From NCBI GenBank assembly GCA_017883205.1, contig JADGNZ010000013.1, positions 1-64,000 on the forward strand: 64,000 bases of DNA, read 5' to 3'. A program made the position numbers and the translations under genes. The DNA comes from Thermoanaerobaculia bacterium. GTDB taxonomy: Bacteria; Acidobacteriota; Thermoanaerobaculia; Gp7-AA8. Within the stretch, counting starts at the first letter, position 1, and every line of letters begins with the position of its first letter. The notes beneath the pieces were generated by a model, which searched no databases, was not told the origin of the DNA, and was given only the letters and a program-made list of their open reading frames with translations. Shown here one piece after another: positions 4,968 to 64,000 of the stretch.

Positions 4968-5303
4968 TCAGTCAAGAATCCACTGGCCGTGAGCGCGGAT
5001 CTCGTCATACATCGCATCGGGCGCCAGGTCGATCTCACCGGGCCATTCAACCGCTCCGAGGTGAACGGCCGCATGTGCGAAAAAGTCGGGATCGCAGAGC
5101 GGTGCAAAGATCGTTCGAGCGATGTCGGCACGACCGAGGCGCGAACGTAGATCGACGATTCCCTGCGTGCCGTCGACAAACTGCACACCTAGAACGCCAT
5201 GCTCGATTACGCGAACGTCGCGGACACGCCAGGCGGCGCGAGGCTCGATTGGAGGCTCTACGACAGCGGTGCGATCCGTTTCGGTGGCTGAGTTCGACTG
5301 CAT
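4968..5303 (-). CDS. DUF2442 family protein
   Basis: A 111-residue protein whose second half matches the DUF2442 pattern: a strand reading VRVIEHGVLGVQFVDGTQGIVDL, split here by description as V-R-V-I-E-H then LGVQFVDG, followed by the AVHLGAVEWPGEIDLAPD segment typical of the C-terminus. The start at 5303 excludes 97 upstream codons that are only the shadow of the neighbouring gene. It overlaps the preceding DUF4160 gene by 46 bases, so the two are co-transcribed. DUF2442/DUF4160 pairs are common and are often listed as putative toxin-antitoxin-like modules. Function is not established. Confidence 0.8.
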   Translation of the reverse strand: MQSNSATETDRTAVVEPPIEPRAAWRVRDVRVIEHGVLGVQFVDGTQGIVDLRSRLGRADIARTIFAPLCDPDFFAHAAVHLGAVEWPGEIDLAPDAMYDEIRAHGQWILD

Positions 5304-5518
5304 AGCTCCCAATCCTCCAATAGTTCCTTTCGATGCTCTGCGGCCCACTCCATCACCAGCGCCAATGCCCGACGCGGAAGCGACCCTCGGTGAACGCTGA
5401 GATCCCGCAAATCGATCAAGACTTCGTGCTCCGCGTAGAGCGCATGAAAGTGTGGTGGTGGATGATCTCCCGCGAACATCTGAACGACCACTCCATAAAA
5501 AACGCTGATCGTTGGCAC
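5258..5518 (-). CDS. DUF4160 family protein
   Basis: An 86-residue protein with the DUF4160 signature: an N-terminal MPTISVFYGVVVQMF strand and the metal-site-like stretch DHPPPHFHALY, then an acidic-basic helix (EWAAEHRKELLEDWELC). It is the first gene of a two-gene unit with the DUF2442 gene, and the coding regions overlap by 46 bases. Such pairs are conserved across many phyla and are suspected small regulatory or toxin-antitoxin modules. No enzymatic role is known. Confidence 0.85.
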   Translation of the reverse strand: MPTISVFYGVVVQMFAGDHPPPHFHALYAEHEVLIDLRDLSVHRGSLPRRALALVMEWAAEHRKELLEDWELCSRTQPPKRIAPLS

Positions 5519-5782
5519 AAGGTCCCCTGCAAACTTTCAAAAAGTGCCTGTAGTGTGATTGTGCGCCACCTTGGTTTTGCAAGGCAACCCTCACAGCGCT
5601 ATCGATAAGTCGCGGTTGGCAGCCTCACGCCCTCCCATCCTGCTCGCTGAGCTCGTTGGAGACTCTGTGACCTCGGTGCCTCTGTGGTTCATGCTTTCTC
5701 AGCCGTCCCGCGCGATACGCGGTAAGCTTTCACCACTCAAGGGCCCTCGAGACCAGACGGAGGCAGCCCACGTCCAATCCTC
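5519..5782. other. Intergenic region with half of a CACAGAG-type repeat
   Basis: A 264-base gap between the divergent DUF4160 gene and the first glycosyltransferase. It should hold the promoters of both. Positions 5661-5694 resemble one arm of the CCACAGAGACACAGAGG palindrome seen complete at 40758-40822. No gene or strong promoter motif could be identified. Confidence 0.4.
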
Positions 5783-6952
5783 ATGAGGGTGTTAGTCATC
5801 GCTTCGCGCTTCCCGTGGCCTGCGTACTCGGGCGATCGGATGCGTACGTCGAGTTGGCTCGCAGCGCTGGCTCCGCACGCGCGCGTTGCGCTCGTGGCAC
5901 CCGAGGGGACAGTACCGGTTGGGGTTGCTCCGTTCGATTTCTATCCCGCGCGGCGCTCCATCATGCGTGGCGTGCGCGGTGGCTTTACAATTCTGAAGAA
6001 CGGTCTGCCCGTGCAGAGTCTTCTGGCAGCACCGTACGAGTGGGATCGCGCCATCGCCGCCGCAAAGCGCGACCTCGGCGGCTTCGACACGACCATCGTC
6101 ATCCTCGCGCGCACCGATCCCTGGCTGCGCGGCTCTCTTGGCGGAGGCGTGAAAATCCTCGACGCCATCGATTCTCTCCGCCGCAATGCAGCAGAGCGGG
6201 GCAACGCCGCATCGATTCCGGCGCGGTGGTTCTGGCGACGGGAAGAGCGTCGCCTGGCGCGGGCGGAAAAGGATGTCGCGGCGTTCTACGATCACATCGT
6301 CGTCGTAAGCGAGGAGGAGACATCCGACCTCGGCGCCAACGCAGTGGCAATCGGTAATGGCGTCCCCGTTGCGCCGCTCGCGATCGACGCCCCGCGGCGA
6401 TTCGATTTCGGTTTCTGGGGCCGACTGGCCTACTTCGCGAACGCCGACGCGGCGATGTGGCTGATCGAGGAGATCTGGCCGGCCATCGTCGACCGGAATC
6501 CCTCTGCCACCTGCGTCATCGCCGGCGCCGACGCGCCGCGCGCGATCCGGCGTGCGGCCGAGCGGCGCGGCATCGCATTCTGCTCGCCAGTCGATGACAT
6601 GGCTGCACTGGCGCGCTCCGTTCGCGTCGCCCTGCTTCCGATCCGTTACGGCAGCGGGCAATCGAACAAAGTCGTGGAAGCAGGAGAGGCAGGCTGCGCG
6701 ATCGTCGCCACGCGCCAGGCATTGCGCGGCCTCGGGCCGCTCGCTCCGCACGTCCGCTTCGCGCACGATGCGCCGTCGTTTGCGGAGGCCGCGCTCGCGC
6801 TACTCGTTCCGCACGCGCGCGACGCCGCGGGAAGCGCGCTCCGCCGCATCACCACCGCCATGTATTCGCGTTCGCGAGTCTTCGACGAGCTCGCCCGCAT
6901 CGCGGGCGTCAGCGTGGGCGCCGGCATGGGCGCCGAGGCGGTGACGGCATGA
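5783..6952 (+). CDS. Glycosyltransferase, GT4-like
   Basis: A 389-residue two-Rossmann-fold (GT-B) glycosyltransferase. The N-terminal strand with acceptor loop is RVLVIASRFPWPAYSGDR. The C-terminal half has the sugar-nucleotide-binding pattern (FGFWGRLAYFANADAA; later LPIRYGSGQSNKVVEAGEAG), with the E of the EAG segment in the usual position. It is cytosolic or membrane-associated and transfers a sugar to a growing surface glycan. It is the first gene of a plus-strand unit, and its TGA overlaps the ATG of the sugar transferase gene (ATGA), so the two are translationally coupled. Donor and acceptor cannot be told from sequence. Confidence 0.88.
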   Translation: MRVLVIASRFPWPAYSGDRMRTSSWLAALAPHARVALVAPEGTVPVGVAPFDFYPARRSIMRGVRGGFTILKNGLPVQSLLAAPYEWDRAIAAAKRDLGGFDTTIVILARTDPWLRGSLGGGVKILDAIDSLRRNAAERGNAASIPARWFWRREERRLARAEKDVAAFYDHIVVVSEEETSDLGANAVAIGNGVPVAPLAIDAPRRFDFGFWGRLAYFANADAAMWLIEEIWPAIVDRNPSATCVIAGADAPRAIRRAAERRGIAFCSPVDDMAALARSVRVALLPIRYGSGQSNKVVEAGEAGCAIVATRQALRGLGPLAPHVRFAHDAPSFAEAALALLVPHARDAAGSALRRITTAMYSRSRVFDELARIAGVSVGAGMGAEAVTA

Positions 6953-8289
6953 TCCGGCCGAGCTCCAAAGAGAAACTTCTCAGAGTCGCGGGCGTGATGG
7001 CCGGCGACTTTCTCCTGGCCTGGGCTGCCCTCGCCGTCACCGTCTACGTTCGGCGGACAGTTCCTCTCGCCTTCACCAAGTCGCTGCTCCCGCCAATGAA
7101 CATCCGGCTCGATGCGCTCACCGTCTGTTTCTTTGGCGGCTCGCTGCTGGTCGCACTCGGATTGAGCGGCTTCTACCGGCGGCGGGCTCTCCCGCATGAA
7201 CGTCCGCTCATGGTGACGGCGCTGGTCATCCAGGTGGCGATCCTCGCGATCGGCGGCGCCTTCGACGAGCGCCTGCTGCCTCGCACGATTCTCATCGGTG
7301 TTCTGGCGATCGAATGGCTGACGCTTCCGGCGTGGCGCAGGTTCATCAGAATCGCGCTGCCGATTCGTCCGCGCGAAACGATCCTCGTCGGCGATGCCGC
7401 GCAGGTGCGGGCGGCGGTCGCGGCCCTGGACGCTGCGGCGGACCGGCGGATCCGCATCGCCGGCTGGGCGGGATCGCCTGACCCGACGCTGCCGATTCCG
7501 AACATCGGGCTGACTTCCAATCCCGGCGTGCGCGTGCTGCTGCGCGAGATTGAGGAAGTGATTTTCGTGAATCCCGAGGCTTCGCCGCGCGAACGGTTGG
7601 AGCTGCTGCAGATTCGTGGACCCCGAGGCTACCTGTTGCTCGCATCGCACGCCGACGCGCTGCTCACCTCGTCGATGCTCGGATGGGTCGGCGATCAACC
7701 GCTGATCGAGATCGCCGTCGGTTGCGGTTACGGGTTCCGCGCGGTGGTCAAGCGGACCATGGATATCGTGATCGGCAGTCTGCTCATCATCGTTGCGGCG
7801 CCGTTTGCGGTCGTCGCCGCCGCCGCGATCTGGCTCAACGACCGCGGACCCGTCCTCATCCGGCAACCGCGCGTTGGATTGGGCGGCGTGACGTTTCCGA
7901 TGTGGAAGTTCCGATCTATGCACGTGCCGCACGAAGGCCACGCCGATGGCGCCGGCGTCACACGCATCGGCTGGTTCCTGCGCCGCTATCGCATCGACGA
8001 GTTGCCGCAGTTGCTGAACATCATCGCCGGAGACATGAGCCTCGTCGGCCCGCGCCCGGAGCGGCCGGAGATCGTCGCGCAGATTCTCAGCGTGCTCCCC
8101 GAGTTCGAGTTGCGCAGTCTCGTGCGTCCGGGTCTGGCCGGACTGGCGCAGGTTTCCGCGGAGCGCGACAGCCGCCCGGAAGTGAAGCTCCGCTACGACC
8201 TCACTTACATGTGCGACTGGTCGGTGCAGCTCGACCTCCGGCTGCTGCTCTCGAGCGTGTCGGCGTCGCTCTCCGGAAGCGGCCTTTGA
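6949..8289 (+). CDS. WbaP-type polyprenyl-phosphate phosphoglycosyltransferase
   Basis: A 446-residue initiating enzyme that moves a sugar-1-phosphate onto undecaprenyl phosphate, starting the polysaccharide repeat unit at the inner membrane. The N-terminal part has several hydrophobic segments and a Rossmann-like CoA-binding-type domain. The catalytic C-terminal domain begins near VKRTMDIVIG with a re-entrant hydrophobic helix. It contains KFRSM, the catalytic acidic pair in RYRIDELPQ, and the MSLVGPRPE signature. It overlaps the upstream glycosyltransferase by four bases. Its stop codon TGA abuts the palindromic repeat at 8289-8358. Confident by motif; the sugar donor is unknown. Confidence 0.93.
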   Translation: MIRPSSKEKLLRVAGVMAGDFLLAWAALAVTVYVRRTVPLAFTKSLLPPMNIRLDALTVCFFGGSLLVALGLSGFYRRRALPHERPLMVTALVIQVAILAIGGAFDERLLPRTILIGVLAIEWLTLPAWRRFIRIALPIRPRETILVGDAAQVRAAVAALDAAADRRIRIAGWAGSPDPTLPIPNIGLTSNPGVRVLLREIEEVIFVNPEASPRERLELLQIRGPRGYLLLASHADALLTSSMLGWVGDQPLIEIAVGCGYGFRAVVKRTMDIVIGSLLIIVAAPFAVVAAAAIWLNDRGPVLIRQPRVGLGGVTFPMWKFRSMHVPHEGHADGAGVTRIGWFLRRYRIDELPQLLNIIAGDMSLVGPRPERPEIVAQILSVLPEFELRSLVRPGLAGLAQVSAERDSRPEVKLRYDLTYMCDWSVQLDLRLLLSSVSASLSGSGL

Positions 8290-8358
8290 TCCGCAGATGT
8301 CGCAGATGAGACGCCGATGAGAGAAAAGCATCTGCGAACATCTGCGACATCTGCGGAT
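8289..8358. repeat. ATCCGCAGATG palindromic repeat
   Basis: A perfect 20-base inverted repeat, atccgcagatgtcgcagatg (8289-8308), with its complement at 8339-8358 and a 30-base loop. The same element occurs at 43840-43904. It starts inside the stop codon of the sugar transferase and contains the start codon of the next glycosyltransferase. It may act as a transcript-stabilising or attenuating hairpin. Confidence 0.9.
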
Positions 8359-9321
8359 AGGACCACGGCACGACTCGATTTCTCGATCGTCATTCCGACG
8401 TTCAACACGGCGGCGATGACGCTGGCGTGTTGCCGCGCTGCAATCGCTGCGGCGCCGGCGGAAAGCGAAGTGATCGTCGTCGACGACGGCTCGAGTGATG
8501 GGACGTGCGAGGTCTTGCTGGCCGAAGTGCCGGAGGTTCGGATCGTTCGCCTTGATATCAACCGCCGCTTCGCCGCGGCAGCGAATGCGGGCGTTGCCGC
8601 GGCGAAGGGCGCGATCATCCTGCTGCTCAACAGCGACACGCGAATCGATCGTGAAGCGCCGGCGAAGATCCTCGAAGCATTCGCGGACGATAAGAAGCTC
8701 GGCGTGGCGGGCGCGCAACTCGTCGATGCGGATGGCGCGCCGCAGTGGAGCGGCGGTCCTCAACCGACGCTGCTCTGGATGGCGGTGATGGTGAGCGGGA
8801 TCGCGCGCGTGCTTCCGCGGCGCAAACGCAAACGCGGCGGCGACGTTGGATGGGTGAGCGGCGCCGCGATGGCGTTTCGTCGCGACGCGTGGAATGACGC
8901 CGGCCCATTCAACGAGACGTATCGCTTCTATGCGCAGGACCTCGAGCTCTGCGTTCGTGCTCGCGCAAACGGCTGGCGCGTGCGCGTGATCGAGAATGCG
9001 AGGGTCGTACACGACGGCGGCGCGACGCTGCGGCACGAGCGCCATGTTGCGGAGCTTCCGCACGACCCGTCGCTGCTCTGGCTCGATCTGCTGTCGTGGG
9101 GGCGCGCGCATTACGGTCGCGGGTGGGCGTGGGCGGCACGCCCGCTGATGTGCGCGGCGGCGTCTCTGCGAATTCTCGGCAGGACTCTTCGCGAGCTGTT
9201 CCTGCGAGGCGGTGCGCGGCGGTCGTCGCGTTCAACGACCCGCGTGTACGCCGCGGCCCTGCGTCAGCTCTTCGTAGAACGTGAGCAGTCCGCGGGCCAG
9301 GGCTTCGGTCGAGAAGCGTGA
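8317..9321 (+). CDS. Family 2 (GT-A) glycosyltransferase
   Basis: A 334-residue GT2 enzyme of the rhamnosyltransferase type. It has the nucleotide-binding opening DFSIVIPTFNT, an acidic EVIVVDDGSSDGT segment, the DxD-like LLLNSDTR, and the acceptor-side motif YAQDLELCVRARANGWRV. The first roughly 14 residues are read through a palindromic repeat, and no better in-frame start precedes the domain, so the ATG at 8317 is used with some doubt. It follows the sugar transferase by 27 bases and is probably in the same transcript. Its last 90 bases overlap the end of the convergent glycosyltransferase gene on the other strand. The linked sugar is unknown. Confidence 0.88.
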   Translation: MREKHLRTSATSADRTTARLDFSIVIPTFNTAAMTLACCRAAIAAAPAESEVIVVDDGSSDGTCEVLLAEVPEVRIVRLDINRRFAAAANAGVAAAKGAIILLLNSDTRIDREAPAKILEAFADDKKLGVAGAQLVDADGAPQWSGGPQPTLLWMAVMVSGIARVLPRRKRKRGGDVGWVSGAAMAFRRDAWNDAGPFNETYRFYAQDLELCVRARANGWRVRVIENARVVHDGGATLRHERHVAELPHDPSLLWLDLLSWGRAHYGRGWAWAARPLMCAAASLRILGRTLRELFLRGGARRSSRSTTRVYAAALRQLFVEREQSAGQGFGREA

Positions 9322-53524: not shown

Positions 53525-54796
53525 CTACGACCCCCCCGAACCACACAACGCCGTCCCATACAACGGCACAACATTCACAGTCACGGACGGTCCATTCACC
53601 GTCACCGTCAGGTAGTGAAAGAACGCGCCCGGCTTCCCCCCCTTCCCGTTCTTGCAACCCGACAGCGGCGCGCCCGCCCCGCCCGTCACGATGAACACCG
53701 GCTTCCCTTTGTCCGGCGAGCTTCCCGTGAACGGGCCGGTCGGATTGGACTGCGCCGGATCGACATACAACAGATGATCGTGCGACGCGAAGACAAAGGT
53801 CATCTTCGGATACTTCCCCTGATCGAGAAGATGCCGGAACGCCTCGACCTGCGTGCCGTAGTCGGACGTATCGCCCTTCGGCGCCCCGATCTGCGACCCG
53901 CCTTTGTCTTTGATGGGACGGTGCATGAAACAGAAGATGTGGGTGACCGAGGCATCGGAAGAAAGCTGATCGAGCGTGGCCTGCAGCGAGGCGAGCTGCG
54001 TCTTCCCGACGTAGCCGTTGTACACGCAGGCGTTCGCGAGCGTGACGTCGAGAACATCGTCGGTATTGATGATGAGGAACGCGGCGTTGCCGTAGCGGAA
54101 CATCCCATACGGCGGCGCCATCGAGGTCTCGTAATCGGCCATCATCGAGCCGCTGAAGTCTGGTAGCTCGGCGTCCCACGGATCGCTCGCCGTGCCGCAC
54201 GATATGAGCGTCTGCACCACCATCTCGTGATTGCCCGGCGCGTTGAACACCGGCACCGTCAGCGGCTTGAGCGCGCCGAGGAATTGCGCGTACTGCTCGG
54301 TGATGCCGACCTCCTGCTTGCCATACACCGTATCGCCATTCCAGACGACAAACTCCGGCGGATTGGCCGAAAGCCGCTGCACCATATCGAGCATCGCCGT
54401 CGTCAACGGATCCCCGCTATGCGCCGGCCGATTGTCGCCCGCCACGACAAAGGTGAAGCTCGTCGACCCCAGACTCGGCTCCAACTGCGTCGCGCCGGTC
54501 GGCAACTGCGTCATCGGGGGAAAGGGCTGGGCCGGGGGAGCGGGTGCTGCCGGCGCCGGCGTGGCAGGGGCGGACGTCTGCGCGGACTTTTTCGCCGACG
54601 CCTGACCCGACTTTTTCGCAGACGTCTGACCGGACTTGTTCGCGGATGTCTGCGCGAACTGTTTCGCGGATGTTTGCGCGGATGTTTGCGCGGATGTTTG
54701 CGCGGATGTTTGCGCGGATGTCTGCGCGGACGAAGTCTGCGCAGTCAGGGAGAGAGCCCAGGCGAGCACGGCGAGCGACGCAATGATTTTCTTCAT
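53525..54796 (-). CDS. Exported calcineurin-like metallophosphoesterase
   Basis: A 423-residue secreted protein. The signal peptide (MKKIIASLAVLAWALSLTAQ) is followed by a low-complexity segment with repeated SAQT units and lysine variants (about residues 20-75) and then Pro-Ala stretches. The catalytic domain has metal motifs VVAGDNRP, VVWNGDTVYG, APGNHEM, FCFMHRPI and ASHDHLLY. It probably hydrolyses phosphoesters at the cell surface or in the periplasm. The low-complexity repeat is encoded by 12-base tandem units (54651-54740). No nearby gene suggests a substrate. Confidence 0.9.
   Translation of the reverse strand: MKKIIASLAVLAWALSLTAQTSSAQTSAQTSAQTSAQTSAQTSAKQFAQTSANKSGQTSAKKSGQASAKKSAQTSAPATPAPAAPAPPAQPFPPMTQLPTGATQLEPSLGSTSFTFVVAGDNRPAHSGDPLTTAMLDMVQRLSANPPEFVVWNGDTVYGKQEVGITEQYAQFLGALKPLTVPVFNAPGNHEMVVQTLISCGTASDPWDAELPDFSGSMMADYETSMAPPYGMFRYGNAAFLIINTDDVLDVTLANACVYNGYVGKTQLASLQATLDQLSSDASVTHIFCFMHRPIKDKGGSQIGAPKGDTSDYGTQVEAFRHLLDQGKYPKMTFVFASHDHLLYVDPAQSNPTGPFTGSSPDKGKPVFIVTGGAGAPLSGCKNGKGGKPGAFFHYLTVTVNGPSVTVNVVPLYGTALCGSGGS
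54651..54740. repeat. 12-bp tandem repeat coding SAQT units
   Basis: Tandem 12-base units (gcggatgtttgc type) in the phosphoesterase gene; copies are near identical at 54669-54725. They extend the low-complexity segment and may vary in number between strains. Confidence 0.8.
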
Positions 54797-54909
54797 GCGC
54801 CAAGTTTCGCACAAAACAGGTTGCCCCGGCCCCGCCCCACCCCTATAATCCGCGCGCCGGAATTCTCCTCCGGCAAGCTGCCGTTAGCAGCGATACTTTC
54901 CAACATCGT

Positions 54910-55046: not shown

Positions 55047-57266
55047 TCAGACGGGCGAGATCTCGTGGCGTGCAGCGAAGACGTCAATCGCTACGTCGAG
55101 CAGGTCCTTGATCTTGCTGTCAAATGTGTCGGCGCGGCGGCTACACGCCTCTTCGAACGTTCGATCGCGCTCGCAGACGTACGTGGCCTCGATCAAGACG
55201 ATCTTACGCCGACCGATCAGGCGAGAGATCTCGGCTCCGTCCGTAATCGTCCAGCTCTCCCCGAACCGACCAGTTCGAATCAGGCGGCTGCTCCAGTATT
55301 CTTGTTGCGCTTTCTGCGTCATCCAATATCCGACAAACGTGTGACCGGTAACGAGCAGCAGCAGGGGGTGCACGCCGATGTACTCAGCACAGGCGGCGAT
55401 CAGGAGAGCGATGTCATGACACGTTCCGAGCTTGCGATCGATGACTTCGGTATGCGTGCGCACGATCTGGCCGACCACGTGCTTTGAGGTACGGTCAAAA
55501 ACGGGACTGCCCGGCGGAGAGATGTAGGTCACTTCGATCGAGTCGCGCAGCGTTTGAAAGATCGCTTTCATTTGTGTTGAGACATAGTCCGGCCGTTTGG
55601 AAACCGCCTGGTATCCGCAGAAGGTGTCGCCGGGATCGCCGAGCGTTCGCAGCACTCTCTTCGCAATCTCGAATACCTTGACTACGCCGTCATCCCACGG
55701 GTTCACAAACGCGGGGATGAAGGCCCATGAGTCCTCCTGGTCGAGCCATTCCTTGGGGCCCATCCAGAGCACGGAAGTTGTCTGACTGGCCAGTTCCACG
55801 CCGTTTGCCGAGGTCACGGTGGCCGTGAAGCTCACGCGCCGCCGACGACCGTGGCGCTCAACGAGCTCGTGCAACGCGGGGAAATAGATGTTCTCCACGT
55901 TGACGGGAACCACGCCCGTCTTGAGATGGATAGTCTGGCGGAAGATCGATATGTTCGCGCCGGTATCGCACTGGATGCACAGATTGCCATCCTGTGCGAT
56001 CGGCGATTCGATGCTAAGGTGCTCGATCGGGTGGAGGCCGTTCACCAGGAGCGCCGGGTTGATGGTTGGACGCGGGCGAAACTCCAGCTTTACGCCGGAC
56101 AGTGGCGGCGTCTCGCTCGTTCCAGGCTGAAGAACTATCTCGCCCCCAAGTGTTCCCATCGCCGACGTAGGCTGCCGTTCTTCCGAGGGGGCTCCGGTTG
56201 CGACTTGAGTCCGTGCTGTCTCCCGCGTAGAGGATTCCGCAATCGGTTGCGCGGCCTGAGGAAAGGGAAGCCATTCGACCCAGTCGGGAGACGGCAGCCA
56301 CACCGTGGGGACTTCGCTTCGACTCAAGGCCGAACCGATGGTACGCGCGAACGAGAGTACCGCCGCGATCGGCGAAAGGCCCTCCAGCAGGCGTTGATAG
56401 AAATAAAACGTGAAGTCGGCGGCCATGTCGTCCGTGACCAGGGCAGGCCAGCCGATGCTGAGCACGTTCAGCTCTTTGGCAACGTCTCCGCAGGCACGCC
56501 CTCCCGCCTCACACGCGTTAATCACCACCATCGACAGCCGCCTGTTCTCACCAAGCGCCTTGTAAATCGAGGCGAGCGGGATGAGCGAAAAAGGCGAGGA
56601 CGCCGAGGTGCGCGAGCGATCAGATGTGACAGGCAAGGCTAGCTGTCCGCCGTCGTCAATGACGGCTGGCGGCGAGAAGTGGAGAAAATCCGCCAGCGTT
56701 TTCTCACACTCGATGAGCAATTGCTGTCCCGTTGGCTCGATCACCACCCGTACTTGCATTCTCGCCAGATCGATCTTGCCAGCGAAGTCATTCATCTCAC
56801 GGCGTACGCCGGGAAGTTCGTATCCCATGAGGTTGGCCCAGCCGGCCATCAGCATCGTGAGCGAGGTTCGGGCAGCCGGAGGCCGCGTGGCGTTAAGACC
56901 GGCTACGCGCGCAACGGCAACATCACCGCTGATCGCCCCTCTGGGTATGAGTAGTTCCGACCACGGCAACGCGATTAGAACGGGGTTTACGGCATTGACG
57001 CATAGAACATTTTCATTGGAGGAGTTCGAGGCCCATTGCCGGATCCACGAGGCAAGTTTCGGCGGCTGGAACGCTTCACGATACCTCTGGATGGCGGCCT
57101 TTCGCTGCGATCCCTCTGAGAATTGGCACTGGACCAGTTCAGCTTTCAGCTCATTTGCGATCCCCATGGACGGACCAGCAAATTTTTCCCTCGCACCGCC
57201 ACTGATGATCTCAAACTCGATTCGCTTCTTTTGGGAAACGACGCAACGGATCGTGGCACTCTTCAT
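55047..57266 (-). CDS. CHAT-like domain - transglutaminase-like domain fusion protein
   Basis: A 739-residue protein. Residues about 130-310 resemble a CHAT caspase-like domain. The Cys motif is NACEAG (C252), but at the His position LHFSPPAVIDDGG (195-207) replaces the usual HFxGHG, so the catalytic His seems lost. Residues about 580-700 look like a transglutaminase/cysteine-protease domain with Cys616 (GTCHD), His642 (TGHTFVGYW) and Glu693 (IEATYV). The middle region, probably beta-rich, is unrecognised. The ATG at 57266 overlaps the upstream stop (TGATG); a GTG lies one codon earlier. It lies in the same strand cluster as a receiver-CHAT protein, which suggests a regulated protease cascade. 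Function is inferred. Confidence 0.78.
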   Translation of the reverse strand: MKSATIRCVVSQKKRIEFEIISGGAREKFAGPSMGIANELKAELVQCQFSEGSQRKAAIQRYREAFQPPKLASWIRQWASNSSNENVLCVNAVNPVLIALPWSELLIPRGAISGDVAVARVAGLNATRPPAARTSLTMLMAGWANLMGYELPGVRREMNDFAGKIDLARMQVRVVIEPTGQQLLIECEKTLADFLHFSPPAVIDDGGQLALPVTSDRSRTSASSPFSLIPLASIYKALGENRRLSMVVINACEAGGRACGDVAKELNVLSIGWPALVTDDMAADFTFYFYQRLLEGLSPIAAVLSFARTIGSALSRSEVPTVWLPSPDWVEWLPFPQAAQPIAESSTRETARTQVATGAPSEERQPTSAMGTLGGEIVLQPGTSETPPLSGVKLEFRPRPTINPALLVNGLHPIEHLSIESPIAQDGNLCIQCDTGANISIFRQTIHLKTGVVPVNVENIYFPALHELVERHGRRRRVSFTATVTSANGVELASQTTSVLWMGPKEWLDQEDSWAFIPAFVNPWDDGVVKVFEIAKRVLRTLGDPGDTFCGYQAVSKRPDYVSTQMKAIFQTLRDSIEVTYISPPGSPVFDRTSKHVVGQIVRTHTEVIDRKLGTCHDIALLIAACAEYIGVHPLLLLVTGHTFVGYWMTQKAQQEYWSSRLIRTGRFGESWTITDGAEISRLIGRRKIVLIEATYVCERDRTFEEACSRRADTFDSKIKDLLDVAIDVFAARHEISPV

Positions 57267-58138
57267 CACTTCTTCCTGTCGCGCGCAACACGCTTCTTGA
57301 CGCTTTTCGCACGCCCGACAGTCGCCGCGCGAACACCCGATACTTTCGAGCTGTCGTCTTCCGCGTCATCCCATGAAACGTTTTCCAGAACGCGATTCGG
57401 CATCGACCCCGACCGAAACGCGGCACGGCCAAAATCAATATTCTCATCGGTTCCGACAAGCCGATCAAGCAGGCTCCGCTTGATACGCGACACTCGAAAC
57501 AGCGGTGACAGTCCGGCCTCGGCCAGCACGGACGTCACTTCACCTTTTTGTGCGATCACGCTCAAAGAACCGTTCACGGAGGCGAGGGGGGCCGGGCCAC
57601 CAACCGGGACTTTTCCGTTCGCGGCCAATTCGACTTTTGAGTCCTTGGAATCTGATACCAGGACTGTTAGCCGATCGGCGGTCAGCAATTCAGTGACGAC
57701 GCACCAATCGACTTCCCAGCCCCGCTGCCGTCCCGGTTTCCTATAGAGCGTCAGGATTTCCTTTCCTACGCCTGCCTGGTTGTCTATTTCGCGAACGACC
57801 GGGGCTGTTGCTTGAAAGACAAATGCGCCCGATGAGCTGAATTCGACGACCGCACCGGCCTTCGCCTGCGGTATGGTCGTACCCGGCAACGATTGTCCCT
57901 CCGCCTTCAGTTTCACCGACACGGATGCACCAGAGGTGTAGGAAATGTCGGCTCCGGGCGGGCCGACGCGCTCGGCGAACTTGATGCCGAGCAGTTCGAG
58001 CGAAGTTTGCGGTTGGAATTCCCCATGGACGAGCCGCCCCACATCGCCTAGGCGGCGTGGCTGGTTCGGCGGCCATGCGGCGTGGTACTTGAGCTTTTCA
58101 AAAACTCCCTTCAGGTAACGGGACCACGGACGCGGCAT
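57266..58138 (-). CDS. Unrecognised protein encoded with the CHAT-transglutaminase gene
   Basis: A 290-residue protein with no recognised family. The N-terminus MPRPWSRYLKGVFEKLKYHA is basic and possibly helical. The middle is beta-rich (PGADISYTSGASVSVKLKA; GAVVEFSSSGAFVFQA). The C-terminus is strongly basic (RAKSVKKRVARDRKK). The start at 58138 is chosen because upstream codons are shadows of the SH3 gene. Its stop overlaps the next gene (TGATG), so it is tightly coupled to the CHAT-transglutaminase protein and may be its partner, target or regulator. No signal peptide is visible. Confidence 0.65.
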   Translation of the reverse strand: MPRPWSRYLKGVFEKLKYHAAWPPNQPRRLGDVGRLVHGEFQPQTSLELLGIKFAERVGPPGADISYTSGASVSVKLKAEGQSLPGTTIPQAKAGAVVEFSSSGAFVFQATAPVVREIDNQAGVGKEILTLYRKPGRQRGWEVDWCVVTELLTADRLTVLVSDSKDSKVELAANGKVPVGGPAPLASVNGSLSVIAQKGEVTSVLAEAGLSPLFRVSRIKRSLLDRLVGTDENIDFGRAAFRSGSMPNRVLENVSWDDAEDDSSKVSGVRAATVGRAKSVKKRVARDRKK

Positions 58139-58157: not shown

Positions 58158-58460
58158 TCATTCTCGTCTCCGAACGGCGTGCAGATACTGTTGCATGGCG
58201 TAACCATCGTGTTTGTTCCACGCCACGTGACACCACGAGCCGTCACAGTGATCTACTAACAGAGTCGATCCGCTGGGAATGGTGGCGCGAATATCCGATT
58301 GCGCATTGCGAGCAGCGCGCAGGATCAGGTTCACTCGGGCAATCGCCGGTTGATGCTCGACCGCGTTGATCGAAAGGCTAATAGCCAGAAGCAGCACTGC
58401 TGCCGAACGCCAAGCCTCGGACCGATGAGTAGAAGCGCCACGTCCGCGAACGATGTTCAC
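58158..58460 (-). CDS. Small exported SH3-domain protein
   Basis: A 100-residue protein. An N-terminal hydrophobic segment (SAAVLLLAISLSINAVEH) looks like a signal or anchor. The rest fits a bacterial SH3 domain: VNLILRAARNAQSDIRATIP, then SGSTLLVDHCDGSWCHV, then HDGYAMQQYLH. Two cysteines could form a disulfide. The start is GTG at 58460 with GGAGG eight bases before it. It is first in a unit with the unknown and CHAT-transglutaminase genes (19-base gap). It could bind cell-wall or peptide ligands outside the membrane. Confidence 0.75.
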   Translation of the reverse strand: MNIVRGRGASTHRSEAWRSAAVLLLAISLSINAVEHQPAIARVNLILRAARNAQSDIRATIPSGSTLLVDHCDGSWCHVAWNKHDGYAMQQYLHAVRRRE

Positions 58461-58718: not shown

Positions 58719-60269
58719 CTACGGCTCGACGAGTGAAACCAGTACCGGACACGCCCACATCGAATTGTCGCGTCCACGTTTCGGGTCCGCAGCTGCAGCA
58801 TTACGCGCGCGAAGCAGCGCAACGCCTGGAGAGAGTGTCGTCATCAGTTCTTCGTAGAACGTAAGCGCAAACGCACGCGCAGCCGCGTCGGGAACTCTCC
58901 AACGGTGCCCGAGTACGGTAGGAACACCAGCGCGCGCGATCGCCTCAAGGATGCCGTGAAAATTGCCTTTACCAGCGTCCTTCGCGGTCCTCGCGCCGAC
59001 ACAGCAACTCAACACTACGATTTCGACGCCGCTTCCTGCAAGCAAAGCCTTCAGCGCTCCTGCTGAGAGAATCTGAGCCGATTTCCCAACATCGACGACG
59101 ACGCCGCTTTCTTCAGGAAGAGTGTCATCGAACCGGCCGTGACCAGCGAAGTGCAGCAGATGAACAGTTCCCCCCGCCAGACGCTCGCACACTTTGTCGT
59201 ACGTTGCCTCGGCATCCCTGAGAGTCGTGATCAAGTGAGGGACACCGATGTTGCGGAGGCTTCGCCGTATGCACGCTTCGATCTCCGCGACCTCGTCCTC
59301 CACTCCTGCGATCGTCCCATCGCTGTTGACACCGATCAAGAGCACGTTCAGCGGCTGATCGGTTGCCATAAGGTGCGCGATGAGGCTATGAAACGGTCTC
59401 GTTTTCGAAGCTGGAATGTCATCGATCGTCAGACGCCGAGTGATGATCGAGTCGAAGCAGAAGAAGTCATTGTCGCTCGTCATGAGCTCGAACGGAACAC
59501 GCAGCAGTTCGGAGGGACCGGCGAACTCAAGAACCGAGGGCACTCTGCGCGTCGACAGATGCCTCGCGGTGGAGATGACACGAGAGATCGCCGCGCGACC
59601 CATCAGCGCGTCGTAGAGATCCGCGCCAATCTGCTTCGCAGGCTGACGCCATCGCCCGCCACCGAAGTACACGAGTTGTTCGATCGCGTCGGCTCGGCGC
59701 CCAAATGCAGCAACGTCCAATCGTGCACGGGGCTTGATTAGGGTGAGCGCCTCTTGTTGCGGTCCGGAAATCTCGGAACTGATGATCTGCGACGAGCTGG
59801 CGACAATCGTGGCGCGGTGACGTTCGCTTAGTCGCCGCTCTGCGGCACGAATGCGACCGCTCACGAGGACGCGGCGAATGCGCGAGACGAACGTATCACC
59901 GGCAAACATTTCGGCATTCTTCTCGATAAAGTCGTCGACGTGATACTCGGCGAATGCGTTTCGGACGCGTTCCGTCGTCGGGTAGCCTGTGATCATGACG
60001 ATGGCGGTTGGCGCGTCGCGCGGACTTCGGCGGATCCGCGCCAGGAGCTCGAATCCTTTTTCATTCGGTACGACCTTGGTCGGCTTCACACCGGCGACGA
60101 GCGAAAGATCGATCGTCACCAACTCGTAGTCCTGTGAATTGAGGTACGACCACGCTTTTTCGATGTCCTCGGCGATGTCGACTGCGGGGAAGATCTCTCC
60201 CAGTCGTTGCGTAAGACCGCGGTGGATCTTCGCTTCGTCTTCCACCACCAGCGCACGCCGAGTGGTCAC
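58719..60269 (-). CDS. Response-regulator receiver - CHAT protease fusion
   Basis: A 516-residue cytosolic protein. Residues 1-130 form a receiver with the acidic pair VVEDE, phosphoacceptor Asp54 (VTIDLSL), Thr94 (MITGY) and Lys117 (IEKN), all intact. Residues about 240-516 form a CHAT caspase-like domain with His377 (LLHFAGHGRFDD) and Cys423 (VVLSCCVG), both catalytic residues present. Phosphorylation by the histidine kinase encoded in the same operon would switch the protease; this is inference. The ATG overlaps the stop of the upstream receiver-kinase gene by four bases. A direct receiver-CHAT fusion is unusual. Confidence 0.9.
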   Translation of the reverse strand: MTTRRALVVEDEAKIHRGLTQRLGEIFPAVDIAEDIEKAWSYLNSQDYELVTIDLSLVAGVKPTKVVPNEKGFELLARIRRSPRDAPTAIVMITGYPTTERVRNAFAEYHVDDFIEKNAEMFAGDTFVSRIRRVLVSGRIRAAERRLSERHRATIVASSSQIISSEISGPQQEALTLIKPRARLDVAAFGRRADAIEQLVYFGGGRWRQPAKQIGADLYDALMGRAAISRVISTARHLSTRRVPSVLEFAGPSELLRVPFELMTSDNDFFCFDSIITRRLTIDDIPASKTRPFHSLIAHLMATDQPLNVLLIGVNSDGTIAGVEDEVAEIEACIRRSLRNIGVPHLITTLRDAEATYDKVCERLAGGTVHLLHFAGHGRFDDTLPEESGVVVDVGKSAQILSAGALKALLAGSGVEIVVLSCCVGARTAKDAGKGNFHGILEAIARAGVPTVLGHRWRVPDAAARAFALTFYEELMTTLSPGVALLRARNAAAADPKRGRDNSMWACPVLVSLVEP

Positions 60270-61882
60270 AGCCCGAGGCGCTCCGCCAGAAGGCCGGCTG
60301 CTAGAACGCCATGCTCTTTCTGCACCGTGGCCATGTGATAAAAACGGATCATGTTCGTCGCGTAGAACATCGACGCGACATCGTAGTCCGGCATGTCGAT
60401 GCTTGTGCGATGGTGACCGTGTTTGGCGGCGATCGAACGGAGATGCAACGACGTCTCGAACGCCTGCTGCAACGACGGGTTGTCGGACTGAAGCTGACCG
60501 ACCGGGACACCTTTCGCGTCGGTTCTCCGGAGCTGCAACAACGCCTGTTCGAGCTGCAGCCGTTCGTCAAGGGTGGCCTCGCCCGGTCCAAGGATGGCGC
60601 AACGCGTGTAGACGTCGAGGAACGCGTGATCGCGAAGGACGTGACCGTGTCCGGTCCTGAAAAAGTCGATAAGCCACGTCTTGCGGTCAGGGTCGATGAG
60701 GATGTTGCCGCCGTTCAAGTCTCCGTGTGTAATACAGCGGTACGTTTGCGTGATGAACGGGCTTTCGGCCAATGGGATCGGATTCTTGATCGCTACCGGC
60801 GACGAGAGCGATTGGAATTTGAGCGTCGTACCGCCCTGAACCGTTTTCAGTTCCTTCCATGCCGTCTCGAGGTTGGTCGGTGTCATGCGCAGCCATGTTC
60901 GGTATTCCTCCGCCAAGTCATAGACCTCGGCTGACATAGGGGCCGCGTACCAGCGCGCGCATGTTGAGAGGAAGAGGTGGTCAAGGACTTGTCGGACATC
61001 GTCCTGTGATGCTGACGCGTAGAATGATGCGAACGGCTCGAACTCCTCGGCGCCGAGAAGTGAGTAAACGATTCCGCCGAGGAAGCGGGTGCGAGCAGTG
61101 GCTGCAATCGATGGCGAGCGGTTGCCTCCAAGCATCCCCACGACGTATTCGTCGTAATTTGTGTGCTCCGTTTCGATATCGGCGACGTCGCCGAACTTAA
61201 CAACAACCGGTCCATGTGCGACACCACGGACGACCGGCTGCACTTTCACTACGCCCGCTCCGCTCCGCCCACCTGGCAACTTCGAGATAAGGATGCTTTC
61301 AGCCTTCCAGAAGAGGCGGCAAAAGAGATCCTCGAGTTCCTCCTGAAAGCGCGCGAAATCTTTGCTATCCGGCCTCACCCGTTTCCCGGCGACTTTTAGG
61401 TTGAAGAGCGCGGCGGACGCTTCGCGCGGACCGTGCGTCCACGCAACGAGCAGCGACCGATTAAGTTTCATCTTCGTTTCGGCGAGTTGGCGCATCCTCT
61501 CGCCGAAGCTCTCGATGTGAAATCGCGACTTGTCCATAACTTCGTCGACATGGAAGTCGTGGAAGGACTCGTGAAGGTACTCCGGAAGCTCGCCGTAGTT
61601 CGAGACTACGACGACGAGACACGAATCGATCTTGCCCTCCGATCGCAGCTTGCCGAGGAGGTCCAGCCAATCGCGATTGCCCCTGCCACCCATGCTGATA
61701 TCGAAGATCAGCAGGTGAAAGTTCTGGCTGTCGATTCGGGCAACGCCTTCGCTCGGGTCCTTCGCGGTATCGACGACGAATCCCTTGACGCGCAGGATGT
61801 CACCCGCCAGGCGGCGAAACCGCTCATCGTCGTCAAGAATGAGCGCTCGGTAGGGGCGGATATTCACGCCGTCGGGTGCCAT
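60266..61882 (-). CDS. Receiver - aminoglycoside-phosphotransferase-like kinase fusion
   Basis: A 538-residue protein. Residues 10-125 form an intact receiver (LILDDDE, phosphoacceptor Asp61 in LLIFDISMGG, Ser94 in VVVSNY, Lys118 in VMDKS). The remainder is a kinase of the APH/choline kinase fold, with a lysine in GPVVVKFGD (K229), the catalytic loop THGDLNGGN (385-393) and the metal Asp in WLIDFFRTGHGH (D406). This resembles 'ternary complex associated domain' kinases of bacterial conflict systems, from memory. The start at 61882 overlaps the preceding gene by 19 bases. It may phosphorylate a small molecule or protein in the CHAT pathway. Confidence 0.83.
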   Translation of the reverse strand: MAPDGVNIRPYRALILDDDERFRRLAGDILRVKGFVVDTAKDPSEGVARIDSQNFHLLIFDISMGGRGNRDWLDLLGKLRSEGKIDSCLVVVVSNYGELPEYLHESFHDFHVDEVMDKSRFHIESFGERMRQLAETKMKLNRSLLVAWTHGPREASAALFNLKVAGKRVRPDSKDFARFQEELEDLFCRLFWKAESILISKLPGGRSGAGVVKVQPVVRGVAHGPVVVKFGDVADIETEHTNYDEYVVGMLGGNRSPSIAATARTRFLGGIVYSLLGAEEFEPFASFYASASQDDVRQVLDHLFLSTCARWYAAPMSAEVYDLAEEYRTWLRMTPTNLETAWKELKTVQGGTTLKFQSLSSPVAIKNPIPLAESPFITQTYRCITHGDLNGGNILIDPDRKTWLIDFFRTGHGHVLRDHAFLDVYTRCAILGPGEATLDERLQLEQALLQLRRTDAKGVPVGQLQSDNPSLQQAFETSLHLRSIAAKHGHHRTSIDMPDYDVASMFYATNMIRFYHMATVQKEHGVLAAGLLAERLGL

Positions 61883-62268
61883 ACGAGTGTGCGCAGACGA
61901 CGCTTTCGAGATGACACCACGGATTTTTCGATTATGCCGGCAAGGCGCTGCGCCGGCAGCAGCGGATGACACACCTCGGTGGCGCCGGAGACAAACAAGA
62001 GATGCGCCGCGCGGACATCGCAGTCGGTGACGAGCGCAACGACCGTGTAGTCGCGTGACAGCACTTCTACCAGCAACGCAAGCTCGTCATCCACGCGAGG
62101 CCAACTCACGACGATGGCATCGACCTCCGCGCGCGTTGGCGATGCGCGCAGTTCGTTCGTCGAGTGACAGACAGTCGCGCTCAGACCGCACGCAAGCAGC
62201 GACGCTGCAACGTTCGTCGCCCACGCTTCATCCTGATCAAACAACGCGATTCGAAGGGGTTGGCTCAT
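61864..62268 (-). CDS. Degenerate receiver-domain protein
   Basis: A 134-residue protein with a receiver-like fold: acidic start RIALFDQDEAW, a VVALVTDCD segment and a final helix. The phosphoacceptor position reads IVVSWPRVD, so the usual Asp is absent. It may bind partners without being phosphorylated. The start is ATG 62268 or GTG 62277; both overlap the kinase gene upstream (32 to 41 bases). Its position between the histidine kinase and two receiver fusions suggests a connector role. Confidence 0.75.
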   Translation of the reverse strand: MSQPLRIALFDQDEAWATNVAASLLACGLSATVCHSTNELRASPTRAEVDAIVVSWPRVDDELALLVEVLSRDYTVVALVTDCDVRAAHLLFVSGATEVCHPLLPAQRLAGIIEKSVVSSRKRRLRTLVWHPTA

Positions 62269-64000
62269 TTTCGACACTCACCTCCCAGTCATCAGGACCC
62301 GCTCTCGGAAGGCGCAACGTAAATGTTGTGCCTCGTTCAGAAGTCTGCGCCACAAAGAGTGTACCGTCATTGAACTCAGCGCGCCGAAGCGCGCTTCGCA
62401 GCCCCCAACCGGTATGGCCCGGCTTCGGATGCGACGCAGTCTCGAAGTCGCGGATGTACGCCTCGTCAATCCCGCAACCCGTATCGATGACGTCGATATC
62501 GACGCTCGGGGGATTATCGCGCACCGAGAACGAGAGCGTTCCGCCGTCCGGCATTGCTTCGACAGCGTTCGAAACAAGGTGGTTGAGAATCTTCGACATG
62601 TCATATAGGTCGGCATAGATTATCGGCGAGGGCTTCGGGATGTCGATGACGATGTCGACGCTCTCCGGGACCTGCGCATCCTTGATGACTTTTTCGATGA
62701 GGCTCTGCACGGATTTGTTTACCGGCTCGGGCACAGAGGCCATACGGTCCCGAACCGTGCGAATCAGTTCGATGGCTTTCGAGACCTCTACGTTGACTTC
62801 GGCGTATTCCTTCCGTGCCTTCTCGAAGTCGTTTTGCGCAAGCGCTTGTTCGGCGAGGGTAATCCAACTCGAGACGTAATTCAGGCCGCCGAAATCGTGG
62901 TGGAGATCGAGCGCATCCTGAGCCGTCGCTGACAGGATTACCGTCCGCTTCTGTTTCATTTCGCGCCGCAGGCTTTCGAACCGTTGCAGAGTCGAACCGA
63001 GCAGGTGCGCCAAACCCAAGACGAAATTCTTGTCCAGGTCTCCGAAATGATTTGGCTGTGGGTGGCTCAGCCCGACGCTTCCGTACGGCACTCCTTGGAC
63101 GATGACAGGAGCAATGAGGAGCGACCGCGTTTTCGGATCCGATAGCACGATCGCCGGCGTTCCCGGCGGCTTGTCGAGAAGATCGTCGATGCACTGCAAA
63201 TCTGCTGTTTGCATCGCCTGTCCGGTCAACCCGTCCTTCGCGTTGACGCGCGTGAAAGGGTCTTCTCCTGCGCCGGCGCGATGCTTGAGGACGAGATCGT
63301 CGTGTTGCCGATCGTACAGCCGCACGACCGCCAGGCAACCGCAGTGCGTCGCCGCAGTCTCGGCGGTGAGCTCACACGCTTCGCCGTAGTTTTCATGCGT
63401 CATCTCTGCCAGTCTCACGGCCACATTGACGATCTCCCTGCTACGCGCGATCTCGAAGGCAGTCACGGCCGCATCGCCGAAAAGCTCGAGCAGATGCTTC
63501 GAGCGTTCATCGAACGCATTCACGTACCTGCTCTCGACGTTCAGAACGCCGAGCAGCTCGCCGCTTCGGGTAAGCAGCGGCACTGCCAACTCGCAGTGGA
63601 TGCCTTCGATGCCGGCGTAGAGTGGGTCGTCCTGCGCGTCGCCCTTGGTGTAGTACGCCTGCCGCGTTTTCGCCACGTGCGCCATGATGCTGCGGACCAC
63701 GCCCTTCGGCATCGGATCGAGGCTCTTTTCGTGTACAGCCGACGGATGGCCGTCCACCATGTCGCAGAAGTACGTCTTCATCAGCTTGTTGTTCGCGTAC
63801 AGGTCGAGATCGGACCGCGTCGAATTCGTCAGCTTTAACGCATGCGTCACGACGGAGTGGACGACGGCGGTCGGATTTCCCGAAACCTGAAGCACTTGCG
63901 CCGAGAGATCGTGCAGAGCCTCGCGGTCCTTCTCCGATTTCTCGTACTCCTCAGCATTTTCGAGCGCGATCGCGATCATACCGGAAATCGCCTCCGTGAG
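62237..64000 (-). CDS. GAF-domain histidine kinase, 5' end beyond the window
   Basis: The frame is open to the right edge (LTEAISG precedes the first in-window ATG at 63979), and the sequence there reads like the end of a GAF domain, so the N-terminus is missing. The visible 587 residues contain two full GAF domains (VVHSVVTHALKL; CELAVPLLTRSGELLGVLNVES; LIAPVIVQGVPYGSVGLSHP). A DHp-like helix follows with LDLHHDFGGLNYVSSW, where His is the likely phosphosite, then an ATPase domain (LNHLVSNAVEAMP, DTGCGIDE, TGWGLRSAL). No transmembrane helix is visible. It is the probable kinase for the receiver fusions encoded downstream. Confidence 0.88.
   Translation of the reverse strand, partial: LTEAISGMIAIALENAEEYEKSEKDREALHDLSAQVLQVSGNPTAVVHSVVTHALKLTNSTRSDLDLYANNKLMKTYFCDMVDGHPSAVHEKSLDPMPKGVVRSIMAHVAKTRQAYYTKGDAQDDPLYAGIEGIHCELAVPLLTRSGELLGVLNVESRYVNAFDERSKHLLELFGDAAVTAFEIARSREIVNVAVRLAEMTHENYGEACELTAETAATHCGCLAVVRLYDRQHDDLVLKHRAGAGEDPFTRVNAKDGLTGQAMQTADLQCIDDLLDKPPGTPAIVLSDPKTRSLLIAPVIVQGVPYGSVGLSHPQPNHFGDLDKNFVLGLAHLLGSTLQRFESLRREMKQKRTVILSATAQDALDLHHDFGGLNYVSSWITLAEQALAQNDFEKARKEYAEVNVEVSKAIELIRTVRDRMASVPEPVNKSVQSLIEKVIKDAQVPESVDIVIDIPKPSPIIYADLYDMSKILNHLVSNAVEAMPDGGTLSFSVRDNPPSVDIDVIDTGCGIDEAYIRDFETASHPKPGHTGWGLRSALRRAEFNDGTLFVAQTSERGTTFTLRLPRAGPDDWEVSVENEPTPSNRVV

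Follow-up and report, generated by a model that had tools for sequence, protein, structure and literature searches.

The window—the whole 64,000-nucleotide stretch of DNA that was analyzed—carries on its minus strand a row of genes running from a histidine kinase through a small receiver-like protein, a receiver-TCAD9 protein, a receiver-CHAT protein, an SH3-domain protein and a gasdermin-like protein to a protein in which a CHAT-like domain is joined to a transglutaminase-like (TG) domain (Table 1). The open reading frame of this last protein, which we call pseudoCHAT-TG, was verified: it has its stop at 55047 and tandem starts, GTG at 57269 and ATG at 57266, and residue numbers here run from the ATG, as they did in an earlier, sequence-only reading of this DNA. 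Its start and the stop of the gasdermin-like gene overlap in a TGATG, and overlaps of that type are a usual sign of translational coupling. The SH3 gene precedes the gasdermin-like gene by about 20 nt, and a 258-nt gap separates it from the receiver-CHAT gene; wall-acting enzymes near gasdermins have been mentioned in a review (PMC9612521). A promoter and terminator scan of the locus found no promoter-like site and a single terminator-like match, inside the gasdermin-like gene and below the shuffle counts. The gasdermin-like gene and the TG relative are missing from both congeners sampled, which gave only generic CHAT and receiver matches, and the GC content of these genes is about 0.59 vs. 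a window mean of 0.63; the locus is accessory and was probably acquired. Beyond it, at 53525-54814, lies a putative metallophosphatase, recognized by eye, in which an apparent signal peptide is followed by an AQTSA-type repeat run.

Table 1. Features of the locus and of its relatives elsewhere, with coordinates and the basis of each assignment
Feature	Position	Strand	Basis or remark
pseudoCHAT - beta-rich region - transglutaminase-like (TG) protein, 739 aa	55047..57266	minus	ORF, alignment, AF2 model, fold searches
Core of the CHAT-like domain (residues 127-316), without the catalytic His	56319..56888	minus	fold search and motif check
HFSPPA (196-201) replacing HFxGHG	56664..56681	minus	11-sequence alignment and motif check
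Cys252 of NACEAG	56511..56513	minus	11-sequence alignment and motif check
Beta-rich stretch (residues 393-504) with homology to the ProA N-terminus (DUF4011/DUF3320 helicases)	55755..56090	minus	
TG-like domain, residues 506-739, with C616, H642, E693	55050..55751	minus	alignment and Pfam
Gasdermin-like protein, 290 aa from ATG 58138	57266..58138	minus	family profile, hhalign, neighborhood
Small SH3-domain protein, hydrophobic N-terminal stretch	58158..58460	minus	SH3_3 just below cut-off
Receiver-CHAT protein, a candidate active protease with HFAGHG and SCCVGA both intact	58719..60269	minus	
Receiver - APH-like (TCAD9) protein	60266..61972	minus	
Small receiver-like protein, apparently without phospho-acceptor Asp (by eye), between kinase and receiver-TCAD9 genes	61864..62277	minus	no Pfam match over cut-off
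Multi-GAF histidine kinase	62237..64000	minus	start beyond window, contig position 66346
pseudoCHAT-TG and DUF7379 two-gene unit, 16 loci	L022-L034, L036, L044, L080		several phyla

What kind of CHAT domain is this? In a model of the protein built with AF2 from an 11-sequence alignment, residues 134-313 match the SAVED-CHAT protease 8tl0 (Foldseek E 3.5e-6; Z 14.8 over 169 residues at 3.1 Å), which of all solved folds comes nearest to the CHAT core and is followed by caspases and MALT1 at Z about 10-11. Unlike 8tl0, the window protein has no catalytic His, and no SAVED domain was detected in it. The Pfam CHAT profile scores it under the cut-off (E 0.0014) and its 54%-identical relative L021, from a Gemmatimonadaceae MAG, over it (E 1e-8). 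The sequence-only reading had called this a CHAT copy that keeps its Cys motif and lacks its His, and on both points it was right; it had also proposed a structural alignment of this kind. Cys252 of NACEAG is there, and HFSPPA occupies the position that HFAGHG takes in the active-looking receiver-CHAT protein. Rescue of the site by another His—one of the observations that were to count against the claim—is ruled out, because H196, invariant and noncatalytic, is the only His within residues 1-330. The domain is, in other words, a CHAT-fold pseudoprotease and not a protease of the CHAT/caspase-like family: it has the fold and one half of the His-Cys dyad. Since the catalytic His is missing from every one of the 11 aligned members and the Cys from 9 of them as well (Tyr, Trp or Ser stands in its place, with Cys kept only in the window protein and L021), the alignment indicates that the loss is a pseudoprotease state of the whole family, not a local mutation, chance or a sequencing slip.

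The other end of the protein tells a different story. C616, H642 and E693 are at the positions given for the triad by the sequence-only reading, which is thereby confirmed, and none of the 11 aligned sequences departs from them. The order of the triad (Cys-His-Asp/Glu) and the similarity to family profiles place the domain in the transglutaminase-like superfamily. DUF553 is matched by 14 of 17 relatives and Transglut_core by 5 of 17 (best E 1.3e-4; Pfam), whereas the Pfam match of the window protein itself falls below the cut-off (E 0.04). The AF2 model gives the domain a pLDDT of mostly 80-94 and predicts a disordered linker (about residues 330-390, pLDDT 22-35) between the CHAT part and the beta-rich region. 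Among the matches listed, the fold search returned CHAT chains, which says nothing against a TG fold, and a sequence profile of the TG module found no TG chain in the PDB. From about residue 405 on, the protein is homologous to ProA (NCBIfam NF058533, E 3.9e-39, covering the N-terminal 311 positions of ProA), and the same region is present in DUF4011/DUF3320 helicases. A transglutaminase-like domain has been described in helicases of the DUF3320 type, in the TG-helicase-Vsr-HEPN arrangement (PMC3710099); the beta-rich and TG module leads a giant helicase-nuclease there, whereas here it stands behind a dead CHAT with no helicase. A literature search under the name ProA found nothing. As the CHAT site decayed, selection appears to have preserved the catalytic residues of TG, which points to the TG domain as the working enzyme of the fusion. 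TG-like domains may also act by crosslinking or deamidation, or have no activity. The module also occurs elsewhere in the phylum without a CHAT domain, in a protein with an apparent signal peptide (L082, 9222-10427).

The pseudoCHAT-TG family, apparently uncharacterized so far, is represented by 18 separate loci in our searches, which come from Acidobacteriota, Gemmatimonadota, Planctomycetes and Pseudomonadota. In 16 of them, the gene directly downstream encodes an alpha/beta-hydrolase, DUF7379, with a serine-hydrolase-like HSRGG motif in those sequences inspected; its family and this motif suggest a lipase. The exceptions are the window and its closest ortholog, L021, which is 54% identical over its full length and has no recognizable system gene around it. 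CHAT and TG are split into two separate, adjacent genes in five Bradyrhizobium loci. Receiver-CHAT genes adjoin none of the other 17 loci in the flanking sequence examined, and a receiver-TCAD9 protein is present in 1 of 10 genomes that carry the family, on another contig; in that genome, the kinase/receiver-TCAD9/receiver-CHAT module has no TG or gasdermin-like neighbor (L066).

What, then, is the small gene whose stop overlaps the start of pseudoCHAT-TG? Bacterial gasdermins are inert until a neighboring protease removes a C-terminal peptide; such protease neighbors are typical of them, and the usual activators are CHAT/caspase-like (PMC9079055, PMC9612521). A gasdermin was suspected from the genes that surround this gene's relatives (described below) prior to the search of the PDB. 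The 290-residue product belongs to no Pfam, NCBIfam or PADLOC family (PADLOC has no match for the TG protein either), and its relatives are rare: they occur in 2 of the 297 genomes sampled from the phylum, the window's own included, and in 4 plasmid records of 72,556, with none in the other 39 relatives checked and none in viral contigs. The profile of this family, run against 177,635 PDB sequences, has the gasdermin 7n50 as its top match (E 0.0045 with 6 sequences, the next match being at 0.19); with five sequences, the top match is the same at E 0.23, and the single sequence gave no match. By hhalign, the family aligns collinearly with a Bradyrhizobium gasdermin (E 5.6e-4) and with two gasdermins (E 7e-5), and among 1,629 ORFs of a local set, the family profile found the Bradyrhizobium gasdermin at 19.8 bits vs. 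3.9 for the next unrelated ORF. In the opposite direction, a gasdermin profile built from two sequences detected the family only at close to noise level (window protein, E 2.8), the AF2 model made without an alignment is unusable (pLDDT 32) and a search of plasmids and phages with the 7n50 fragment returned no match. Gasdermins that are recognized and solved are far apart themselves (7n50 vs. 7n51, E 0.0028).

Two features of the family bear on its membership. An N-terminal Cys is absent—the window protein has its first Cys, if any, beyond residue 100, and the N-termini of the six aligned members have none—and a palmitoylated N-terminal Cys is typical of most, not all, bacterial gasdermins. 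The aligned family ends in a variable tail of about 65 residues. A candidate protease is directly adjacent in the window and in three other loci: in L075 and L079, it is a TPR-CHAT protein, and in L074, it is a TG-module protein without CHAT (A6 profile E 6.8e-15), and no other candidate protease was found next to that gasdermin-like gene. Caspase-FGS and CHAT proteins lie within a few genes of the relative in L076, and no protease was seen beside the one in L069 in the flanking sequence read. With modest homology to solved gasdermins and an adjacent protease gene on one side and no N-terminal Cys on the other, we regard 57266-58138 as quite likely a divergent bacterial gasdermin. The L074 protein (5217-7979), on a Gemmatirosa plasmid directly upstream of the gasdermin-like gene, looks TIR-like to the eye and ends in the same TG module as the window protein.

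We have tried to read the two coupled genes together. Because the broken CHAT-TG fusion is coupled to a gasdermin-like gene, the two genes probably make up a switch for bacterial cell suicide, perhaps one that serves in phage defense. The gasdermin-like protein would be a pore-former kept inert until it is cut; the Cys-His-Glu domain of its partner would perform the cut; the CHAT fold, enzymatically dead, would act as a scaffold, sensor, docking surface or regulator; and the upstream module of histidine kinase, receiver-TCAD9 and receiver-CHAT proteins would probably supply or gate the trigger. That the genes between 58138 and 55047 form an effector and its activator in this way, with the TG domain doing the cutting, is a proposal to which we give nearly, but not quite, an even chance. 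It draws support from L074, since the TG-module protein is the sole protease candidate there. The pairing is seen in only two loci, the window and L074, because L021 has no gasdermin-like neighbor and most relatives have the hydrolase instead.

An apparently active CHAT protease about 0.6 kb upstream counts against the TG domain as the cutter, since it could cut as well. The receiver-CHAT protein, which retains its His and Cys motifs, might cleave the gasdermin-like protein itself and leave pseudoCHAT-TG as a regulator or second effector, for example, a c-FLIP-like pseudo-caspase that partners the active CHAT. That gasdermins are usually activated by CHAT/caspase-like proteases (PMC9612521, PMC9079055) favors such a division of labor, as does the presence of TPR-CHAT genes beside two relatives of the gasdermin-like gene, but the 258-nt gap and the SH3 gene stand between the receiver-CHAT gene and the gasdermin-like gene, which the TG gene overlaps, and in L066, the same module does without a gasdermin-like or TG neighbor; we consider it somewhat unlikely. 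A different answer is that no pore-former is involved: pseudoCHAT-TG would be an effector or modifier in its own right, one that crosslinks, deamidates or cuts a protein of the invader or the host, and the gasdermin-like gene would be a passenger or no gasdermin. The close ortholog L021 manages without a recognizable partner, and for the homologous modules in giant DUF3320 helicases, an extra line of defense by protein cleavage has been proposed (PMC3710099). The TGATG overlap, the second TG-gasdermin-like pair in L074 and the constancy of the hydrolase partner in 16 of 18 loci all speak against such independence, which strikes us as distinctly improbable.

The sequence-only reading had made the dead CHAT a bait, which the receiver-CHAT protein would cut to release an active TG domain. 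Both CHAT types are indeed encoded in one locus on one strand, with the predicted disordered linker a fitting place for a cut. This idea has fared badly: the other 17 pseudoCHAT-TG loci have no receiver-CHAT gene alongside in the flanking sequence examined, receiver-TCAD9 accompanies the family in a single genome of 10, L021 lacks recognizable system genes altogether and the usual partner of the family is an alpha/beta-hydrolase, with a gasdermin-like gene in its stead here. Release by cleavage can be no general requirement because CHAT and TG are already separate genes in the five Bradyrhizobium loci. We think the bait very improbable. At the window locus, the dead CHAT may instead be a subunit by which another CHAT is docked or regulated.

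How does TG-domain activation of the gasdermin-like protein compare with systems already described? Bacterial gasdermin systems (Johnson et al. 2022, via PMC9612521 and PMC9079055) share the direct adjacency of a protease gene and a small gene for a gasdermin-like protein, and relatives of ours lie beside or near CHAT or caspase-FGS genes; the window differs in its very divergent gasdermin-like sequence with no N-terminal Cys and in a coupled protease that is TG-like, carries a dead CHAT and has a two-component module upstream. None of the papers covered by our literature search describes a TG-like protease in a bacterial gasdermin system. The VMAP/ternary conflict systems (Kaur et al. 2020, PMC7159879) share the TCAD9 domain and frequent inactive peptidase domains, and they pair caspase-type peptidases with a neighboring alpha/beta-hydrolase, as the sister pseudoCHAT-TG loci do. 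However, the window operon is ruled out as a member, with no VMAP, vWA or MoxR gene, and it has a histidine kinase, of which the authors found none among vWA-associated effectors (PMC7159879). A vWA/MoxR-like pair does lie about 11 kb upstream of the kinase, separated from it by unrelated genes.

Gasdermins usually owe their activation to caspase-like or trypsin-like proteases. If our proposal is true, the protease of a cell-death switch is exchangeable while the caspase fold persists as a regulator, a parallel to the pseudo-caspases of animals; the pseudoCHAT-TG family, spread over several phyla, gains a testable role, with a TG module that it has in common with anti-phage helicases; and sensory two-component control bears on what triggers bacterial gasdermins. 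A bolder version, which we hold with more doubt than confidence, is that caspase-type catalysis was replaced, so that CHAT became a scaffold and the fused TG protease activates a pore-former under a histidine kinase here and a lipase-like hydrolase in the sister system. The TG protein may serve membrane-acting effectors generally: gasdermin-like in the window and lipase-like in the sister loci. On another contig of the window's own genome (L086, G000:C80), a CHAT protein whose His and Cys motifs are both intact (5141-7369) is followed by a DUF7379 alpha/beta-hydrolase (7387-8847). An intact-motif CHAT and the pseudoCHAT-TG family, therefore, each adjoin the same kind of hydrolase, and this pair is possibly the counterpart of the hydrolase-linked pseudoCHAT-TG pairs.
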